Source of the DNA: Streptomyces sp. NBRC 110611
Lineage (GTDB): Bacteria; Actinomycetota; Actinomycetes; Streptomycetales; Streptomycetaceae
Direction: 5' to 3'
NCBI RefSeq assembly: GCF_001590865.1
Contig: NZ_BBUY01000003.1
Location: 547,061 to 611,060, forward strand
Length of the DNA stretch: 64,000 nucleotides
In this document: one piece after another, positions 53,404 through 64,000 of the stretch
Numbering within the stretch: position 1 is the first letter of the stretch
Layout: each line of letters starts with the position of its first letter
Notes under the pieces: generated by a model
The model's input: only the letters and a program-made list of their open reading frames with translations
Database searches by the model: none
Told to the model about the DNA's origin: nothing
Made by a program: the position numbers and the translations under genes

Positions 53404-54150
53404 GTGACCATCCCGACCGACATCCGCCTGCCCGCGACCCAGCTGGCGGGCGTGTCCAAGAGCTATGAGAGCGCGTCAGGCCCGGTGCCGGTGCTGCGCG
53501 AGGTCTCGCTCGGCTTCCCGCAGGGGGCCATGACCGCCGTCATGGGCCCCTCGGGGTCGGGCAAGACCACGCTGCTGCACTGCGCCGCCGGGCTCGACCG
53601 GCCCACCGGCGGGCAGGTGCTGCTGGGCGAGACCGACCTGGGCGCGTGCGACGAGCGGGAGCTGACGCGCATCCGGCGGGACCGGATCGGGTTTGTGTTC
53701 CAGCAGTTCAATCTGCTGCCGATGCTCACCGCGTACGAGAACGTCGCACTGCCGCTGCGGCTGGGCCGCCGCGCCCCCAAGCGGGCCGTCGTCATGGAGG
53801 CGCTGCGCCAGGTGGGGCTGGAGGGCAAGGAGAAGCGGCGGCCCGCCGAGCTCTCCGGCGGGCAGCAGCAGCGGGTGGCGATCGCCCGCACGCTGGTGGC
53901 CGAGCCGGAGATCGTCTACGCGGACGAGCCGACGGGCGCGCTGGACACCGCGGCCGGCCGCCGGGTCATGGGGCTGCTGCGCCAGGCCGTGGACCGGGCG
54001 GGCCGCACGGTGGTGATGGTCACGCACGACCCGCACGCCGCGGCCTGGGCGGACCGGGTGGTCTTCCTCGTGGACGGGCGGATCGTCGGCAAGCTCGACC
54101 ACCCCACCGCGGAGCAGGTCGCCGCCTACATCAGCGGCTGGGACCGGTGA
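53404..54150 (+). CDS. ABC transporter ATPase (MacB/LolD/BceA type)
   Basis: 248 residues from GTG at 53404. Walker A GPSGSGKTT, Q-loop FVFQQFNLLPMLTAYENV, signature LSGGQQQRVAIAR, Walker B IVYADEPTGALD and switch His in VTHDPH are intact. The FQQFNLLP and EPTGALD forms are typical of the MacB/LolD/BceA group that powers FtsX-type permeases by mechanotransmission. Its stop overlaps the permease start (GTGA). Expected role: peptide or lipid-II-targeting antibiotic export/defence next to an NRPS locus. Confidence 0.95.
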   Translation: MTIPTDIRLPATQLAGVSKSYESASGPVPVLREVSLGFPQGAMTAVMGPSGSGKTTLLHCAAGLDRPTGGQVLLGETDLGACDERELTRIRRDRIGFVFQQFNLLPMLTAYENVALPLRLGRRAPKRAVVMEALRQVGLEGKEKRRPAELSGGQQQRVAIARTLVAEPEIVYADEPTGALDTAAGRRVMGLLRQAVDRAGRTVVMVTHDPHAAAWADRVVFLVDGRIVGKLDHPTAEQVAAYISGWDR

Positions 54151-56144
54151 GCGGGATGTGGCAGCTGTCCGTGCGTTCCGCGCGCCACTACTGGGCGCTG
54201 TTCGCGGGTGCCTTCGTCGTCCTCGCCCTGGGGGTGGCGCTGATCGGGACGACGGCCGCCGCGCTGGCCGCCACCTGGAACGCGCAGCGGCCGGCCGGCG
54301 GGCCCGCGGTCACGCTCAGGGACGGTACGGGGGCGAGCCATACCCTCTCCGCAGGTGAGGTGGACCTCGGCGGGGTGCAGAGCGTGCTGGCGATGGCCGG
54401 GGTGGTCTCGGCGTTCGTGACGGTGTTCGTGATCGCCGGGACGTTCGCGTTCGGTGTGGCGCTGCGCGGCCGGGACATGGGGCTGCTCCGGCTGGTCGGC
54501 GCGGGCGGGCCGCAGGTGCGGCGGATGGTACTGGGCGAGGCGCTGGCGGTGGCGGTGCCGGCCGCGGCCGCGGGCTGCGCGCTGGGGGCGGTGGCCGCGC
54601 CGTGGGCGGTACGGGCCCTGAACGGAACCGGGCTGACGCCCGTGGAGCTGCGGGCCGGGCCGTTGGGCGGGCCGCTGCTGTTCGCCGCGGGCAGCGGGCT
54701 GGTGATCGCCGTCCTGGGGGCGCTGGCCGCCGCCCGCCGGGCCGCCCGGGTGGGGCCCACCGCGTCGCTGCGCGAGGCCGATCTGGACGCGAAGGCGATG
54801 ACCGCCGGGCGGTGGATCTCCGGGCTGGTCCTGCTGGCCGCGGGCGGGATCATGGTGGCGCTGGCGCCGAACGCGGGGCCGGAGGCGGCCACGCCGCTGG
54901 CGCTCTTCGGGCCGCTGGCGCTGACGCTGGCCGCCACGGCGTGGGGACCGCTGTATCTGCCGTTCCTGGTACGGGCGTTGACCGCGCCGCTCACCTGGTC
55001 GGGGTCGGTGTCCGGGCGGCTGGCCGGGGCGGCGGCGGGGACGGCCAAGCGGCGAACCGCCGCGCTGGTGGGGCCCGTTCTGGCGATCGTGGCCATCGTG
55101 GGCACCTTCACCTCGGTGATGGCGACCACGGGCGCCGCCGCGGCCGCCGACGAGCGGGCCCGCACCCTGGGACAGCTCGTGGTCGAACCCGCCGACGGGA
55201 GCGGGGAGCTGAGCGGGCGGGCGCTGGCCGCACTGCGCGGTGACCCCCGGGTGCGGGCCGTCTCGGCGCCCGCGCCGGTCGAACTCGCCGTGGCCGGACC
55301 GGACACGGTGTGGCGGGAGCAGGCCGCGGTGGCCGACCTGCAGGCGCTGGCCCGTACCCACCGCCTCACCGCCGTGCAGGGCGCCGTCCGGGAGCTGGCG
55401 CCCGGAACGGTCGCGGTGTCCCGGGAGTTCGCCGACTGGTACGGGTACCGCGTGGGCGGCCGGATCACGTACGGGTTCTTCGGCGGGCAGCCGGTGAGCG
55501 CGCGGGTGGTGGCGGTGCTGGACGGCGGCGCGGCGGTGCCGCATCTGCTGCTGCCGGAGGCGGAGCGCGCCCGCGCGGCGGCCCCGGAGCGGGCCACGGT
55601 GCTGCTCGCGGACCCGTCCGGCGGTGCCGGGGCGGCGGCCGGGGGACTGGCGGACGCCCTTCGTGCACAGGGCGGGCAGCCGGTCGCCGTGACCCCCACC
55701 GCCGAGTGGTACGCGGGCCGGGCCACCGAACAGGACCGGCTCAACGACCTGGTGCTGGTGGTGCTGACCGGGCCCGCCGCCGTGTATGCCCTGATCGCCG
55801 TCGCCAACACCCTGGTGATGTCGTACAGCCGGCGGGGGCGGGAGATCGCGGGGATGCGCATGCTCGGGGCCGGTGCCGGGCAGGTGCGGCGGATGGCGCT
55901 GTGGGAGGCGCTGGGCACCACCACGGTCGGGGTGGGGCTGGCGGCCGGGGTGATCGCCCTGGGTCTGGCGGCCTACCGCGCCGGGCTGCGCGTATCCTAT
56001 GGAGCGATTCCGCTCAGCGTGCCGTGGGGGGCCCTGCTCGGTCTCGTCGGCGGGTGCCTGCTCGTGGCCGTATGCGTAAGTCTGACGGCTGTGCGACGCC
56101 TGCTGCGGCGCGGCACCGTCGCCGCTGTCACCGCTCGAGAGTAG
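54147..56144 (+). CDS. FtsX-domain ABC transporter permease
   Basis: 665 residues, GTG overlapping the ATPase stop. Layout: one N-terminal helix, an FtsX helix bundle (~75-210: LAMAGVVSAFVTVFVIAGTF, VPAAAAGCALGAVAAPWAV), further helices, a soluble extracytoplasmic domain of ~190 residues (~335-520), and a C-terminal FtsX bundle (LVVLTGPAAVYALIAVANTL, TVGVGLAAGVIALGLAAYRA, LLGLVGGCLLVAVCVSLTAV). The large extracytoplasmic domain between bundles resembles BceB-type peptide sensors/exporters more than LolCE. A NarL-type two-component pair follows. Confidence 0.92.
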   Translation: MSGMWQLSVRSARHYWALFAGAFVVLALGVALIGTTAAALAATWNAQRPAGGPAVTLRDGTGASHTLSAGEVDLGGVQSVLAMAGVVSAFVTVFVIAGTFAFGVALRGRDMGLLRLVGAGGPQVRRMVLGEALAVAVPAAAAGCALGAVAAPWAVRALNGTGLTPVELRAGPLGGPLLFAAGSGLVIAVLGALAAARRAARVGPTASLREADLDAKAMTAGRWISGLVLLAAGGIMVALAPNAGPEAATPLALFGPLALTLAATAWGPLYLPFLVRALTAPLTWSGSVSGRLAGAAAGTAKRRTAALVGPVLAIVAIVGTFTSVMATTGAAAAADERARTLGQLVVEPADGSGELSGRALAALRGDPRVRAVSAPAPVELAVAGPDTVWREQAAVADLQALARTHRLTAVQGAVRELAPGTVAVSREFADWYGYRVGGRITYGFFGGQPVSARVVAVLDGGAAVPHLLLPEAERARAAAPERATVLLADPSGGAGAAAGGLADALRAQGGQPVAVTPTAEWYAGRATEQDRLNDLVLVVLTGPAAVYALIAVANTLVMSYSRRGREIAGMRMLGAGAGQVRRMALWEALGTTTVGVGLAAGVIALGLAAYRAGLRVSYGAIPLSVPWGALLGLVGGCLLVAVCVSLTAVRRLLRRGTVAAVTARE

Positions 56145-56254
56145 CCACATGGTGGTCGGACGTACCTTCATGTCGTAATGCCGCCTATGCTGAGCAACCC
56201 TGAGAACACCACTGTGCTTTGAGGCAGGCACTTCACGAACAGGCAGGGATCACC

Positions 56255-56902
56255 GTGCGCGTCGCCATCGCTGAGGATTCTGCGCTCTTGCGGATGGGGA
56301 TGGTGCGGCTGCTGGCCGATGAAGGCATCGAAGTGGTGGCGTCGCTCAGTGACGCGGAGACCATGTGCGAGGTGGTCGAAGAGTTCTCGCCACACGTCGT
56401 GATCATGGATGTGCGGATGCCGCCCAGCCATACCGACGAAGGAATACGCGCGGCCTGCGCAATTCAGGAGACCAGCCCCGGCACCGCGGTTCTGGTGCTG
56501 TCGCAGTACGTGGAGCAGACGTACGCGGAGGAGCTGGTGCGGAACGCCCGTGGCGGGGTCGGCTACCTGCTCAAGCAGCGGGTGGCGGACTTCGACGAGT
56601 TCCTCTCCGCCCTGCAGCGGGTGTCCCGGGGCGGCACGGTACTGGACTCCGACATCTTCAAGCAGTTCGTCGGACACCCCCGCGAACAGCGGGCCACGGA
56701 TCTGCTCACCGCGCGCGAGCGACAGGTTCTCGAACTCGTCGCCACCGGCCTGACCAACTCCGGTATCGCCACCCGGCTCGATATTTCCCAACGGGCCGTG
56801 GAAAAGCATGTGACCTCGATTCTGGGGAAGTTGAAGATTCCCAGTTCCGGGGCGGACCACCGGCGCGTGCTGGCGGTTCTGAATTATCTACGGGGGCGTT
56901 AG
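56255..56902 (+). CDS. NarL/LuxR-family response regulator
   Basis: 215 residues from GTG at 56255 (AGGGA upstream); the frame's TTG at 56219 adds a peptide without signal. Receiver with AED, Asp52 in VIMDVRMPPSH, Lys in GYLLKQRV. HTH: LTARERQVLELVATGLTNSG, IATRLDISQRAVEKHVTSIL. Partner of the kinase encoded 47 bases downstream. Placed between an ABC exporter and an NRPS gene, it may regulate either. Confidence 0.93.
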   Translation: MRVAIAEDSALLRMGMVRLLADEGIEVVASLSDAETMCEVVEEFSPHVVIMDVRMPPSHTDEGIRAACAIQETSPGTAVLVLSQYVEQTYAEELVRNARGGVGYLLKQRVADFDEFLSALQRVSRGGTVLDSDIFKQFVGHPREQRATDLLTARERQVLELVATGLTNSGIATRLDISQRAVEKHVTSILGKLKIPSSGADHRRVLAVLNYLRGR

Positions 56903-56949
56903 ACACGCCCTGGCGGATTTGCCCGGGTGAGTGTGACCGCATTGCAGTG

Positions 56950-58398
56950 ATGAGCGAGAGCGTCGTGGAATTCTGTGCAGAACGAGCAGCCGGTCCGGTG
57001 CGGCGCGGTGCCGACCGTCCGCCGACCGCCTTCCGGGTCGCCGCCGGGCTCATCTATCTGTCCGTCGGCAGTCTGGTCGGTCTGCTGCTCGTCCCGCTCG
57101 TCGTCAGCTCCGTGGTGCTGCGCGCGGTCACGCTCCTGCTCTCCGCCGTGCCGCAGCTGGCGACGCTGGGGGTGCGCTCCGCCACCGCGGCGGTGCGGCG
57201 GGCGCTGGGCGCCGAACGGCCGCCGCCGCAGCGCGCCGAGCGGTTCACGGCGCGCGCGGTGTGGCGGAAGGCCGGCGACCTCCGCGCGTGGTTCGTGCCG
57301 AGCCTGCCGCTGCTGCGCGCGGTCGCCGATCTCGAACGCCTGCTGGCCGCCCGGGTGGTGGATCCGGACGCGCCACCGCGCCGGCCGCGCACCAAGGACA
57401 CCGGCGACGAGGCCGCCGGCAGGGGGGCCGACGGCAGGAGGGCCGGACCGGCCGGGGCGGACACCGGCTGGGCCGACGTCGGCTACCTGGGCCTGCTGCT
57501 GCTCGGCACGGTCTGGCTGGTGCCGATCCTCGCGCTGGTGGTGCCGATCGCCGCGTTCGTCGTCAGCCTGCCCATCGGCCCGCCCGAGCAGCTGGCCTTC
57601 GGCCCGGGGCTGACCGTCCTGGTCGAGGGCTTCTGGAAGCGCCTGGCGGTGGGCGTGGGGTCGATGGCGGGCTTCGGGCTGCTGGTGACGCTGCTGTTCT
57701 GGCTGGGCAAGGTACGTGCCCGGCTGGTGCGCCGGGTGCTCAGCCGGCTGGACGAGGCCGACGAGCGCCGCAAGAAGGAGCAGGCGGAGCTGCGGCGCAC
57801 CGCCGCGCTGCGGGTCAACGACGCCGACTACCGGCGGCTGGAACGCGATCTGCACGACGGGGCACAGGCCCGGCTGGCCGTGCTGCTCATGCGCCTTTCG
57901 CACGCCAAGCGGCGGGTGGGAAAGGACCCGGATGCCTTCTCCCACCTGCTGGACGAGACATATCAGGAAGTCAGCAAGGCGCTGGACGAACTCCGCGATC
58001 TGGTCCGGGGAATTCAGCCGCCCATTCTCAGTGACCGTGGTCTGGATGCCGCCGTCGCGGTACTGACCGAGAAATTCCATGTGCCGGTCGTCGTGCGCAG
58101 CACTTTGTCCGTCCGGCCGGCCGCCAGTGTGGAATCGGCGGCGTATTACATCATCGCCGAATCGCTGACGAACGCCGTCAAGCACGCCTCGGCGACCGAG
58201 CTGCGGGTGGACCTGGACCGGGCGGACGGCTGTCTGCGGGTCGCGGTCACCGACAACGGCTCGGGCGGCGCCAGCCAGGAGGCGGGAACCGGCCTGCGCG
58301 GGCTGGCGGACCGGGCCACCGCGCTCAACGGAGAGCTCACCGTGACCAGCCCGCCAGGGGGTCCCACCACCGTGCGGGCCGTCCTCCCCTGGGCCTGA
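56950..58398 (+). CDS. NarL-type sensor histidine kinase
   Basis: 482 residues from ATG at 56950 (GTG at 56947 equivalent). A membrane region near the N-terminus (AAGLIYLSVGSLVGLLLVPL then VLRAVTLLLSAV), a charged cytoplasmic insert of ~110 residues, a second membrane region (GYLGLLLLGTVWLVPILALV), then HisKA_3 with phospho-acceptor His302 in RRLERDLHDGAQARLAVLLM and HATPase (AESLTNAVKHASATELRVDL, VTDNGSGGASQEAGTGLRGL). Forms a pair with the preceding regulator. No large extracellular domain, as in intramembrane-sensing kinases. Confidence 0.93.
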   Translation: MSESVVEFCAERAAGPVRRGADRPPTAFRVAAGLIYLSVGSLVGLLLVPLVVSSVVLRAVTLLLSAVPQLATLGVRSATAAVRRALGAERPPPQRAERFTARAVWRKAGDLRAWFVPSLPLLRAVADLERLLAARVVDPDAPPRRPRTKDTGDEAAGRGADGRRAGPAGADTGWADVGYLGLLLLGTVWLVPILALVVPIAAFVVSLPIGPPEQLAFGPGLTVLVEGFWKRLAVGVGSMAGFGLLVTLLFWLGKVRARLVRRVLSRLDEADERRKKEQAELRRTAALRVNDADYRRLERDLHDGAQARLAVLLMRLSHAKRRVGKDPDAFSHLLDETYQEVSKALDELRDLVRGIQPPILSDRGLDAAVAVLTEKFHVPVVVRSTLSVRPAASVESAAYYIIAESLTNAVKHASATELRVDLDRADGCLRVAVTDNGSGGASQEAGTGLRGLADRATALNGELTVTSPPGGPTTVRAVLPWA

Positions 58399-58747
58399 CG
58401 CATCCCTGTGCCAACCCTGGACACCCTCGCTGATACCCCATCTGACCTGTGGTTTTTCGCCCAGGCCAAACCGCTTGCCCGTCCTTGTATGCGTGATCAA
58501 CAATGACGGGGTACGGATAACCGCACCCCCCACGGTGCGGATATCCGTACCGGGGAGGTTTCGGTCGGACCCAGAAGTCGTCGAGCCCACTGGCCGAAAC
58601 TTCCCACTCCCATGGCCGGCCCCGCCCGGCCTTGTGGCCGAACCATCAGCTCAGCGGACGGCCGTCCCGCCCTGGCCAGAGGGCGGGCAGGCGCCGCGGC
58701 GGCCCCGCCGCACGACGGGGCCCGATTCACCACTCTCCTGGGAAGGC
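58399..58747. promoter_or_regulatory. Leader region with 18-bp inverted repeat
   Basis: ggtacggataaccgcacc (58510-58527) and ggtgcggatatccgtacc (58534-58551) pair at 17 of 18 positions with a 6-base loop, followed by CGGGGAGG. It lies ~200 bases before the serine hydrolase start. It could be a repressor operator or strong RNA hairpin. No other gene seen here. Confidence 0.6.
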
Positions 58748-60091
58748 ATGGAAGTGCAGTATGTGGGGGACCGGCTGCGGGAACTCGCCGCGGAAACCGG
58801 TGTTCCAGGAGCCCAGCTCGCCGTGTACACCGAAGGGGAAACCCTTTCGCTGGCCACGGGAGTCCGGCGGATCGGAGCCGACGATGCGGTGGACACCGGC
58901 ACCGCCTTTCCCTATGGATCGGTGAGCAAGGCATTCACCGCGACCGTGGTGATGCAGCTGGTTTCCGACGGCGATGTGGAACTCGACGACACGGTGGCGG
59001 AATTCCTGCCGGAATTCGCCCGCCCCGCGGACCCGGAAATGGCCGCGGTCACCGTACGGCAGCTGCTGAGCCACACCGGCGGGATGCTGGCCGACCATGA
59101 ACTCGACGACGCCGACGAGCGCTCGCTGCGGCGCTACGCGGCCGCCGTGGCGGCCACCGGGCTGCTGCACCGGCCCGGCGAGGTCTTCTCGTACTCCAAC
59201 ACCGGCTACAACCTCCTCGGCCGGGTCATCGAGGCGGTCACGGACCTGAGCTGGCAGGCGGCGGTGGAGAGCTTCCTGCTGCGTCCGCTCGGCATCGACC
59301 CGTACTTCCTGCACGGCCCCGCCGCGTCGCGCGCCGTGGCCACCGGGCACGCCGTCCGGCTCGAACGCGGCGGCGCGCACCCGGTCGAGGTCTTCCTGCC
59401 GCCCACCTGGGCCCCGGCCAGCGGTCTCGGCGGCAGCGCCGAGGACCTGGTCGCCCTCGCTCGACTGCACTTCGGCGACTCGCCGTCGGCCGCCGACCTG
59501 CTGGATGAGGACGCACGTGCCGAGATGCACACACCGGTGCCGGCCGCCGACGCCTTCGGCATGGCGGACGGCTGGGCGCTGGGCCTGGCCCGCTACGGCG
59601 GTGCGGACAGCGGGTGGCTGGGCCATGACGGCACGGTCGACGGCGGCACCGCCCAGCTGCGCTTCCACCCCGGCCGGCGGGTGGCCGTCGCGCTGACCAC
59701 CAACGCCACCACGGGCACGCTCCTGTGGCCGCGGATCGTCGCGGAGCTGCGGAAGGCCGGTATCGACGTCGCCGACCACCAGCAGCCCGTCCCGGACGCG
59801 CCGCCGGGCCAACAGCCAGACCCGGCACGGCTGTTGGGTGACTACCTCAACGGTGACACGCGCTTCACCATCGCCCGCCACGAGGGCGGGCTGCGGCTGA
59901 GCGACCGTACCGGACTCCTCGCCGACATGACCCTGCACGGCCCCGACGGGCTGCTGTTCACCGCTCGCCGCACCGACGCCGACGAGGCCCCCTACACCGG
60001 GCGGTTCGTCCTGGACGGCGCCACCGGTGAGGCCGCGCTGATGCAGCTCGCCGGGCGCTCGGCCCGCCGCGAGCGGCCCGCGGCCCGCTAG
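58748..60091 (+). CDS. Serine hydrolase of the class C beta-lactamase/D-aminopeptidase fold
   Basis: 447 residues from ATG at 58748 (GGGAAGG upstream). No signal peptide. Catalytic tetrad S58-V-S-K61 in FPYGSVSKAFTATVVMQL, Tyr-x-Asn motif in FSYSNTGYNLLG (~150), and HDGT motif in GWLGHDGTVDGG as third box. A C-terminal ~100-residue beta domain follows (GDYLNGDTRFTIARHEGGLR). Such enzymes in peptide clusters hydrolyse peptides, esters or activate/inactivate products. It lies 162 bases upstream of the NRPS gene in the same direction. Confidence 0.92.
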   Translation: MEVQYVGDRLRELAAETGVPGAQLAVYTEGETLSLATGVRRIGADDAVDTGTAFPYGSVSKAFTATVVMQLVSDGDVELDDTVAEFLPEFARPADPEMAAVTVRQLLSHTGGMLADHELDDADERSLRRYAAAVAATGLLHRPGEVFSYSNTGYNLLGRVIEAVTDLSWQAAVESFLLRPLGIDPYFLHGPAASRAVATGHAVRLERGGAHPVEVFLPPTWAPASGLGGSAEDLVALARLHFGDSPSAADLLDEDARAEMHTPVPAADAFGMADGWALGLARYGGADSGWLGHDGTVDGGTAQLRFHPGRRVAVALTTNATTGTLLWPRIVAELRKAGIDVADHQQPVPDAPPGQQPDPARLLGDYLNGDTRFTIARHEGGLRLSDRTGLLADMTLHGPDGLLFTARRTDADEAPYTGRFVLDGATGEAALMQLAGRSARRERPAAR

Positions 60092-60253
60092 GCCCGGCGC
60101 GCGGTCCCCACACCACTTCCCTACGCATCCCGTCTTTTCCCACGCACCCGACTTTTCACGTTTTCACGGTCACTTCCCGGCCCCGGAGAGCTGACGCCTG
60201 GCCGCAGGCGGTGTTCGGGCTGCGCGGAAGTCACCCGATCCTGGAGGTACAAC

Positions 60254-63200
60254 GTGGCTCGCGCCAACGCGTCGACCGACCGAGCGGCCCACCCGCCGGT
60301 GGAGTACTGGCGAGACCGGCTGGCGGGGATCACCCCGCTGGAGCTGCCCATCGACCGTCCGCGCCCCGTGGTGCGCTCCACCGACTGCGCGTCGTACGCG
60401 TACACCGTGCCGGCCGCCACCGTCGCGGGCCTGCGGGAGCTGGCCGGGCGCCACGACGCCACGCTGCTGGAGGTCCTGGTGGCCGCCGCGCAGGCGCTGT
60501 TCGCCCGCTACTCCGGCCAGGAGGACATCGCGCTGGGCACCGTCTCCGAGGAAGCCGGCACCACCGTCGTCCTGCGGACCCAGGTCGAGGCGCGGGCGTC
60601 CTTCGCGGCGCTGCTGGGCGACGTCAAGGAGACCGTGCGCGGCGCGTTCGCGCACGACGGCGTGGAGCCGGCCGAGCTGGTCGAGGCGCTGCGGCCGGAG
60701 CGCGACACCAGCACCACCCCCTTCGTCCAGGCCATGGTGGTCCTGCACCGCGACGCCGGCGCCGAGATCGACCCGCTCGATCTGTCGCTGGAGTTCGCCG
60801 AGAGCGGCGAGGAGCTCGCGGCCCGGATCGGCTACAGCACCGCCCTGTTCGACGAGGCCACCGTCGTCCGGCTGGCCGGGCATGTGAACACCCTCCTCGC
60901 GGGCGCCGCGGCCGACCCCGGGCGGCCGGTCTCGGCGCTGCCGATGCTCACCGACGGCGAGTTCGAGCAGGTCGTACGGGAGTGGAACGCCACCGACCGC
61001 GAGGTGCCGGCCGGGACCTTCCCCGAGCTGTTCGCGGCCCGGGTCGCCGCACTGCCCGACGCGGTCGCCGTCGTGGACGAGCAGGGCCGGGTCACCTACC
61101 GGGAGTTGGATGAGCGGGCCAACCAGCTGGCCCACCACCTGCGGGAGCGGGGCGTCGGGACGGACGACCTGGTCGGCCTGTGCGTGGAGCGCGGCGCCGA
61201 GATGGTCGTCGGGCTGCTGGGCATCATGAAGGCGGGCGCCGCCTACCTGCCGCTGGACCCCTCGTACCCCGCCGACCGCCTGGCGTACATGCTGGAGGAC
61301 TCCGGCGCGCGGCTGATCGTCACCCAGGAGCGGCTGGCGGACCATCTGCCCGGCACCGACGCCGAGTTCGTGATGCCGGACCGGGACCGCGAGGACATCG
61401 CCCGGCACCCCACCACGGCCCCGGACGTCGCGTTCGCGCCGGAGGACCTGGCCTACGTCATCTACACGTCCGGCTCCACCGGCCGTCCCAAGGGCGTCCT
61501 GGTCTCCCACGCGGGTATCGGCAACCTCGCCGCCGTCCAGATCGAGCACTTCGATGTCACGCCGGGCAGCCGGGTGCTGCAGTTCGCCTCCGCCAGCTTC
61601 GACGCGGCGTTCTGGGAGATCTGCATGGGCATCCTCACCGGCGCCGCGCTGGTGATGGGCGGCAAGGACACCATGCTGCCCGGCGAGCCGCTGGCCGCCT
61701 ACGCCGCCGAGCACGGCGTCACCCACGCCACCCTGACCCCCGCCACCGTCGCCGTACTGCCCGACGGCCGCGGCCTGCCCGAGCGGGCCACGCTCGTCGT
61801 GGCCGGCGAGGCGAGCACCGGTGACCTGGTGGCGCGCTGGTCGGCGGGCCGCCGCATGATCAACGCGTACGGCCCGACCGAGAGCACGGTGTGCGCCACC
61901 ATGAGCGCCCCGCTCTCCGGCGCCGCCGTACCGCCCATCGGCACCCCGATCGCCAACACCCGGATCTACGTCCTCGATGACGCGCTGCAGCCGGTCCCCG
62001 CCGGTGTGCGCGGCGAGCTCTACATCGCCGGTGCCGGTCTGGCGCGCGGCTACCACGGCCGGACCGGGCTGACCGCCGAGCGGTTCGTCGCCAACCCCTT
62101 CGGCGAGCCGGGCAGCCGGATGTACCGCTCGGGCGACATCGCCCGCTGGCGCGCGGACGGCATGCTGGAGTACCTGGGCCGCGCCGACGACCAGGTCAAG
62201 GTCCGCGGCTTCCGGATCGAACTGGGCGAGATCGAGGAGGAGCTGGCCCGCCACCCGGACGTCGCCCAGGCCGTGGTGATCACCCACAACACCAACCTGC
62301 TGGCGTACGTCGCGGCGGCCGACGCCGGGCGCCGCCCGAGCGCCGAGGGCCTCAAGGCGCACCTGGCCGAGCGGCTGCCCGAATACATGGTCCCGGCCGC
62401 CGTCGTCGTGCTGGACGCGCTGCCGCTGACCCCCAACGGCAAGGTGGACCGCCGGGCGCTGCCCGAGCCGGGCGCCGCCGCCGAACCGGCCGACGAGGCC
62501 TTCGCGGCCCCCCGCAACGCCGTCGAGCAGACCCTCTCCGGGGTGTGGGCCGAGGTGCTGGGCGTGGAGCGGGTCGGCATCCACGACAACTTCTTCGACA
62601 CCCTCGGCGGCAACTCCATCCTGTCCGTCCGTGCCGTCTCCCGGATGCGCCAGGCGCTGGGCGTCCAGCTCTCGCCGCGGGCGCTCTTCGACGCGCCCAC
62701 CGTCGCCGAACTGGCCGCGCAGGTCGCGCCGGAGGAGTCCGTGGAGGACGCCCCGATCCCGGCCGTGCCGCGCACCGGACCGCTGCCGATGTCCTTCGGC
62801 CAGCAGCGGCTGTGGTTCCTGGAGGACTTCGACCCGGGCAGCGCCGAGTACCACACCGCGTTCGGGCTGCGGCTGACCGGTGAGCTGGACGCGGACGCGC
62901 TGCGCGCCGCCGCCGGCGACCTGACGTCCCGGCACGAATCGCTGCGTACCACCTTCGGTGCCGTCGAGGGCAAGGGCGTCCAGGTCGTCCACGAGGAGCT
63001 GGCGCCCGAGTGGCACACCGCGGACATCTCCGCGGTCGCCGCCGACCTGCGTGAGGAGCGGCTGCGGGAGCTGGTGCGCGCCGAGACCGCCCGCGCCTAC
63101 GACCTCCAGGCGGGCCCGCTGGTGCGGGTACTGCTGGTGAAGGCCGGTGCCGCCGAGCACGTCTGCGTCCTGGGGATGCACCACATCGTCACCGACGGCT

Positions 63201-64000
63201 GGTCGATGGGCGTGATCGCGGCCGAGCTGGGCGAGCTGTACGCGGCCCGGGTCGAGGGACGCGCCGCCGCACTGCCCGAACTGTCCGTCCAGTACGCCGA
63301 CTTCGCGGCCTGGCAGCGCGGCCGGCTGGAGGGCGGCGGGCTGCTGGACGAGCAGCTCGACTGGTGGCGGGAGCGCCTCGCCGGCGTCACCCCGCTGGAG
63401 CTGCCCACCGACCGGCCGCGCCCCGCCGTGCGCTCCACGGCCGGCGCCGTGTACGGCTTCGACGTGCCGGCGGCCACCGTCGCCGGCGTCAAGGAGCTGG
63501 CCAAGGGCCGCGGCGCGACCCTGTTCATGGCGTTGACCGCGGCCGTCAAGGCGGTCTTCGCGCGCTACTCCGGCCAGGAGGACATCGCGGTGGGCACCGC
63601 GTCCGCCGGCCGCGGCCACAAGGACCTGGAGCAGCTGGTCGGCTTCCTGGTCAACACCGTCGTGCTGCGCTCGCACATCGACCCGCAGGCGTCTTTCGGG
63701 CGGCTGCTGGGACAGGTCAAGGAGACCGTCCTGGAGGCCTTCGCGCACGAGGAGGTGCCCTTCGAGCGCGTGGTGGAGGCGATGCAGCTGGAGCGCGACA
63801 CCAGCCGCACCCCGCTGATCCAGGCCATGGTCGTGCTGCAGAACGCCCCCAACGAGGGCGTCACCTTCCCCGGCGTCGAGGCCGCCGACCACCCGGTGCT
63901 GCGGGACGCGGCGCCCTTCGACCTGACGGTGGAGTTCTTCGAGGCCGGTGACGCGCTTCAGGCCCGGATCGGCTACAGCACCGCCCTGTTCGACGAGGCC
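60254..64000 (+). CDS. Nonribosomal peptide synthetase, partial (half-C, A(Phe), PCP, C...)
   Basis: 1249 codons to the window edge, from GTG at 60254 with GGAGG six bases upstream. Residues ~15-230 are only the C-terminal half of a condensation domain, entering at [20 protein letters not shown]; the N-terminal half with HHxxxDG is missing. A domain ~240-745: A3 [11 protein letters not shown] (~403), SFDAAFWE (D450, A451, W454), [32 protein letters not shown]. Aligned to GrsA the ten specificity residues are D-A-W-T-V-A-A-V-C-K, predicting phenylalanine. PCP ~757-825 with DTLGGNSIL. The second C domain (~840 on) is complete with MHHIVTDGW and [18 protein letters not shown]. No epimerase domain follows the first carrier. 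Looks like the loading module of a peptide line continuing off the window. Confidence 0.95.

Follow-up and report, generated by a model that had tools for sequence, protein, structure and literature searches.

The window, i.e., the whole stretch of 64,000 nucleotides that was analysed, ends inside a nonribosomal peptide synthetase (NRPS) whose first domain is the C-terminal half of a condensation (C) domain, referred to here as half-C. The features that bear on it are listed below.

58748..60091, + strand: SurE/Ulm16-like PBP-type thioesterase gene (PF00144; E value 1.8e-57)
60243..60247, + strand: GGAGG ribosome binding site, present ahead of the start in all 13 half-C loci of the window group
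60254..60298, + strand: GTG start and N-terminal tail of 15 residues, poorly conserved (identity, pLDDT)
60299..60967, + strand: half-C, the C-lobe of a condensation domain, residues 16–238 (PF00668 positions 189–454, alignment, AlphaFold model)
61034..62443, + strand: adenylation domain A1 with its C-terminal subdomain (PF00501, residues 261–601; PF13193, residues 659–730)
62531..62722, + strand: carrier (T) domain T1 (PF00550, residues 760–823)
62783..64000, + strand: C2, the complete second condensation domain, which continues beyond the window (PF00668 from residue about 844; G000:C3:609843-611174)
63179..63199, + strand: HHIVTDG active-site motif of C2 (residues 976–982), absent from half-C

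Half-C is N-terminal and sits directly ahead of the first A domain of the line. Its residues from about 16 to 238 match positions 189–454 of the 456 in PF00668 (G000:C3:607341-608030) with an E value of 6.2e-28 and 99 bits, against a cut-off of 30.6, and homology to the C-lobe is therefore clear. The other characteristics of a catalytic PF00668 domain, starter C domains included, are an N-lobe with HHxxxDG and loops of normal length, and neither is found. The first-pass annotation had described an NRPS that starts in the middle of a condensation domain behind a good ribosome binding site, and this is borne out by the GTG at 60254 after GGAGG and by a match confined to PF00668 189–454. It was also right that half-C is unable to condense by the HHxxxDG route, since the N-lobe and the active-site motif are absent. 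A motif of 21 residues in half-C does recur in C2, as it had noted, although the spacing is about 1,019 residues and not 1,030; the HHIVTDG is indeed among the C2 residues ahead of this motif, which number about 190 rather than about 180.

The whole first subunit has 3405 residues in the order half-C-A-T-C-A-T-E-C-A-T, with the E domains assigned by motif. On its 3' side there is a short MbtH-like gene, recognised by eye, and then a second subunit that is cut by the contig end.

Conservation of the start among Streptomyces loci

A search of 295 Streptomyces genomes, of which the best 30 loci were read, gave at least 10 with the same NRPS start, counting that of the window, and this excludes chance. 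These 10 loci, together with L033, L035 and L036 from another collection, make up the 13 half-C loci of the window group; L034, L037 and L038 are the same loci as G099, G229 and G252 and were not counted twice. The start codon and GGAGG coincide in all 13 (12 GTG and one TTG), and a wrong start was rejected on this basis. A near copy of the window's locus is that of G090, a genome in one contig, with 97% DNA identity over the query. Its alignment with the window has no gap columns in 700 coding bases, whereas the region immediately upstream has 20 of them alongside 170 aligned bases, so the frame has been kept. The G090 line is complete, with six modules arranged 3 + 3, the last of them with an E domain. 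In the second subunit of G090 (contig C1), modules 5 and 6 have near-identical A domains with a single common code, which reads as Thr-like.

It is hardly credible that a frameshift, an assembly error or a wrong start conceals the N-half. The assembly does consist of 98 contigs, with a contig end inside the second subunit, but nothing at the start itself points to such an error. The reading frame on the 5' side of GTG 60254 is open for 54 codons only and is not C-like. A whole-genome six-frame search with PF00668, with stops read through, revealed neither an N-lobe or HHxxxDG motif nor an NRPS module upstream of half-C on the contig; in particular, it found no N-half or frameshift at 60092–60254, where the first-pass annotation had allowed for one, or in a preceding protein of the contig. 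Moreover, the 13 loci with the same start include the single-contig genomes G090 and G273, and in two Thermoflavimicrobium loci the start is an ATG directly after an in-frame stop codon. We conclude that the starter module carries a genuine and conserved C-lobe without catalytic function, of the same type as the domain called C* in ThdA (see below).

Two copies of the locus are irregular. In Streptomyces sp. 8L (L045:1500-2627) the half-C region translates into scrambled proline/glycine sequence, presumably through an error of sequencing or assembly, and this locus was set aside and does not enter the counts. In G273 (C1:6189 onward; L101) the frame of the half-C-starting NRPS ends at residue 493, and the copy looks broken or misassembled.

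Loops, selection and predicted fold of half-C

The first-pass annotation had reported the loss of the VGFLVN segment from half-C. This was confirmed as a deficit of 12 residues relative to C2 at the floor loop, and a second loss that had gone unnoticed there, of 16 residues, was found at the latch.

60539..60562, + strand: shortened floor-loop segment of half-C, 8 residues (20 in C2), placed by alignment to the fuscachelin C domain
60740..60775, + strand: shortened latch segment of half-C, 12 residues (28 in C2), placed in the same way
63596..63655, + strand: intact floor-loop segment of C2, 20 residues
63833..63916, + strand: intact latch segment of C2, 28 residues

The fuscachelin C domain has its floor loop at A2843-L2858 and its latch at R2923-T2944 according to excerpts of PMC8097023, and these elements were placed on chain positions 363–378 and 443–464 with an offset of 2480 inferred from end letters and lengths. 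In a set of 22 half-C starters (described below) and 57 of 59 full C domains (C_L146_2026 and C_L097_976 were left out), the floor segment has 7–14 residues in the former vs. 20–22 in the latter, and the latch segment 6–22 vs. 27–34. Both are short in every one of the 22 half-C starters. The median lengths of the other three segments are the same in half and full domains (78/78, 59/59 and 36/36), although individual half-Cs can be shorter there (44 instead of 59 at the lowest). In the available part of PMC11186497, floor loop and latch are both described as stretching from the C-lobe across to the N-lobe. What is missing is thus the N-lobe together with the two elements that normally reach over to it.

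The loss of both loops also bears on the idea of a split C domain, in which another protein would provide the N-lobe in trans. A single partial PF00668 match at another place in the genome, covering mostly the N-half (C9:194432-194968, positions 33–214), might be a partner of this kind; however, it belongs to another NRPS region on another contig, the parts of half-C that would reach towards it are gone, and there is no upstream carrier to donate. We give this explanation almost no credence.

Sequence comparisons indicate that half-C is under weakened selection, although its A-facing end matches that of a functional C domain in conservation. The mean pairwise identity among 12 loci (G273, with its frame ending early, was left out) is 0.61 for half-C, 0.72 for the C-lobe of C2, 0.76 for the N-lobe of C2 and 0.84 for the A1 core. 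Values of dN/dS by the NG86 method, which is rough at this G+C content, are 0.30–0.68 for half-C, below 1 in all five pairs, and 0.09–0.33 for the C2 C-lobe; in the pair L033-G099 the half-C value is slightly the lower of the two (0.296 vs. 0.325). When segments were compared in 11 loci, omitting G090 as a near copy of the window, seven body segments were less conserved in half-C than in C2, while the last helix (0.65 vs. 0.63) and the C-A linker (0.69 vs. 0.58) were not. This contrast between body and A-facing end is seen in 52 of 55 pairs, a count that is not equivalent to a p-value because the pairs share ancestry. Conservation is also higher in A1 than in A2 (0.79 vs. 0.68), which the conserved linker may partly reflect. 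One motif of 14 residues, which we take to be C6, is degenerate in half-C when compared with its counterpart in C2.

These data are relevant to whether half-C is a pure relic, i.e., decaying sequence that contributes nothing and awaits deletion. The faster evolution of the body segments and the degenerate motif would be expected of a relic, and related lines manage without a half-C. Yet the frame is open in 13 of the 13 species loci used, dN/dS stays below 1, the A-facing end is not relaxed, and both loops are trimmed in every separate group, which looks like refinement. We consider a pure relic unlikely, while leaving it some weight.

An AlphaFold model of residues 1–656 was obtained with a pLDDT of 90.6 and a pTM of 0.89 from 53 alignment rows, of which 42 are full C-A pairs. 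It superposes on known C-A structures (PDB: 6p1j_A, rmsd 2.1 over 636 residues; PDB: 6oyf, TM 0.89). With 11 half-C rows only, the pLDDT was 68.4 and the pTM 0.54; the strands and helices of half-C were unchanged and the A domain was mostly poor. The predicted fold of half-C is well supported, and its seat on the A domain, which leans on the full C-A rows, is plausible.

The adjacent thioesterase and the proposed role of half-C

The listed frame of the thioesterase gene opens at 58475. Its homologues align from about residue 79–92, leaving the first 80–90 codons unmatched, so ATG 58748 is probably the start instead. The best solved structures are 6ksu (E value 4.5e-103) and 8fek, the latter entitled 'PBP cyclase Ulm16'; 6ksu is named SurE in the available text of PMC11735501. 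A PBP-type thioesterase gene is found upstream of the half-C NRPS in 12 of the 12 loci whose contig is long enough on that side, and in G099, where the contig starts 50 bases ahead of the NRPS start, the thioesterase gene is on another contig. The line thus has the stand-alone PBP-type thioesterase beside the NRPS that typifies SurE-type systems. The window's own line being cut by the contig end, the other characteristic, a last module with an E domain and without a cis thioesterase, was established by motif scan in G090 only. Directly on the 5' side of the thioesterase gene, at 53404-58398, are an ABC ATPase with an FtsX-like permease and a LuxR-type regulator with a histidine kinase, all recognised by eye; permease and kinase frames also lie 5' of the thioesterase gene in G090.

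More distant SurE-like genes were found in 31 genomes, and 20 Streptomyces loci were read. Fifteen of these NRPSs start with a bare A domain and one with a full C domain (L177); in the remaining four there is no start downstream. In the 15 bare-A loci the A domain follows 133–634 bases downstream, too little room for such a half-C. Since these related lines begin with A alone, half-C is not generally needed to start, and it is one among several starter designs. At one locus (L153, G085:C123:129208-130575) the match to the SurE-like gene contains one in-frame TAG.

We propose that the NRPS at 60254 opens a peptide assembly line as its first subunit, with half-C-A-T as the initiation module. A1 would activate the first residue, presumably an aromatic one to judge from its code, T1 would carry it, and C2 would take the T1-bound residue as the donor for the first peptide bond. 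Half-C would perform no chemistry. It would be a leftover of an elongation module recruited as a starter, retained since its last helix and the linker form the face that seats the A domain. That a non-catalytic C-lobe has been kept in this way, as a platform on which the A domain of the starter module rests, is in our opinion the probable explanation, even though half-C evolves faster than the C2 C-lobe and the 15 bare-A lines do without it. The 'structural remnant on a starter module' of the first-pass annotation is the suggestion that fits best.

Its other two suggestions fared less well. No evidence was found for a docking role, and the 15 N-terminal residues that might mediate it are poorly conserved (mean pairwise identity 0.50 among 12 loci), with a pLDDT of 39 at residues 1–10. 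A broader version, in which half-C or its tail would bind a partner, for instance the thioesterase or the last module's carrier, and so aid cyclisation or ordering, draws on the thioesterase gene that adjoins in all visible loci and that also precedes the half-C starters of Pseudonocardiales. Against it stand, besides the tail, the related SurE-type lines that have no half-C, and the Streptomyces starters L062, L096, L097 and L098, where no such thioesterase gene was seen upstream of the NRPS in the loci read. Such a function is in our view improbable. Recombination that removed an upstream module was likewise unsupported. A half-C common to 13 species loci cannot have arisen by a recent accident. 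The domains most closely related to it are C2 domains from lines of the same type, which suggests that an internal module was copied and recruited as the starter. Loss of an older upstream module may be an alternative origin.

Other half-C starters and known systems

The set of 22 half-C starters was defined by start and not by tree, a quick tree having been seen beforehand. It comprises the 13 of the window group, two from Pseudonocardiales, four of the L062 group, two from Thermoflavimicrobium and one from Shouchella. The Pseudonocardiales starters are from two MAGs (L039 and L088). The L062 group (L062, L096, L097 and L098) is a separate group of Streptomyces, and the first A domain of L062 has a code that reads as Asn-like. 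The Thermoflavimicrobium starters belong to two species (L145 and L146), and the Shouchella starter (L147) is from the same genome as L084. Judged by match length with starts unread, no further half-C was recognised in a sample of five other genera of the family or among the matches listed for 396 Actinomycetota genomes (seven candidates per genome scored), and these surveys give no frequency.

In a tree of C-lobes, the half and full labels need five changes, at least three of which are forced by starred branches; four are needed when two long rows (C_L146_2026 and C_L074_553) are removed. The window group nests among the C2 domains found in lines of its own type (branch 99/87), apart from the Thermoflavimicrobium starters. 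On the set without the two long rows, a single origin for all 22 was rejected (p-AU 0.000377). The window group and Pseudonocardiales as one clade were not rejected (p-AU 0.256), and a pairing of Pseudonocardiales with the L062 group in one tree is without support (38/32). Several half-C branches are long, which makes exact placements unsure. We see an even chance that half-C starters are a recurrent, convergent type, in which, in at least three lineages, an elongation module would have turned into a starter on losing the N-lobe, floor loop and latch, with the streamlined C-lobe being selected as a platform for A. These lineages would be the window group, the L062 group and Thermoflavimicrobium, and perhaps Shouchella and Pseudonocardiales.

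The nearest described case is ThdA, the thermoactinoamide synthetase, whose starter is described with a 'C*, truncated condensation domain, probably inactive' in the part of PMC7253712 consulted. As in the window, the truncated domain is at the N-terminus of the starter module, ahead of the first A domain, and is incomplete and predicted to be inactive. The ThdA line makes a cyclohexapeptide with two trimodular subunits, in accord with the 3 + 3 modules of G090; however, Thermoactinomyces is by name from another phylum, and the two are likened by description only. The same excerpts mention that the truncated domain could influence the selectivity of the following A domain, which would fit the conserved A-facing end of half-C.

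In the desotamide family, as described in the available parts of PMC7459860 and PMC11735501, the thioesterase is also a stand-alone PBP-type enzyme, as is the product of the SurE/Ulm16-like gene here, and G090 has in common with this family six modules, a last E domain and no cis thioesterase by motif. In contrast, the loading modules of this family are A-PCP (PMC7459860) and not half-C-A-T. The XUC exchange unit, CAsub-A-T-CDsub, starts at the acceptor half of C, about where the window protein does (excerpts of PMC11546977 and PMC11355689). The XUC cut is man-made in a complete C domain and rejoined to a donor half, whereas half-C has no donor half at all, and its floor loop and latch have been lost. 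The starter C (Cs) domains of lipopeptide synthetases (PMC11546977, in part) are also C-type domains ahead of the first A, but acylate the first residue, and half-C is without the catalytic half. Other truncated C domains, in the portions of PMC4041764, PMC3705289, PMC8739492 and PMC6737921 that were available, are internal or C-terminal. The accessible text of PMC7565604, PMC7827011 and PMC11934086 has no mention of a half-C starter, and that of PMC7486941 refers only to cloning of C fragments. Beyond ThdA, the literature covered, in which subscription journals are thinly represented, yielded no recognised account of half-C starters as a recurrent type or of a lost floor loop and latch. The truncated starter C itself is already known from ThdA, and what looks new is that it arose repeatedly with both loops shortened alike.

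Half-C separates the catalytic part of a C domain from a part that perhaps only supports A, a natural experiment carried out more than once. If half-C helps A, the rule for turning elongation modules into starter modules would be to keep the C-lobe and drop the floor loop and latch. If the convergent origin is true, nature cuts NRPSs about where XUC does and shows which loops become superfluous. For annotation, the start position of the first C-type match in a starter module needs to be checked before it is named a condensation domain.
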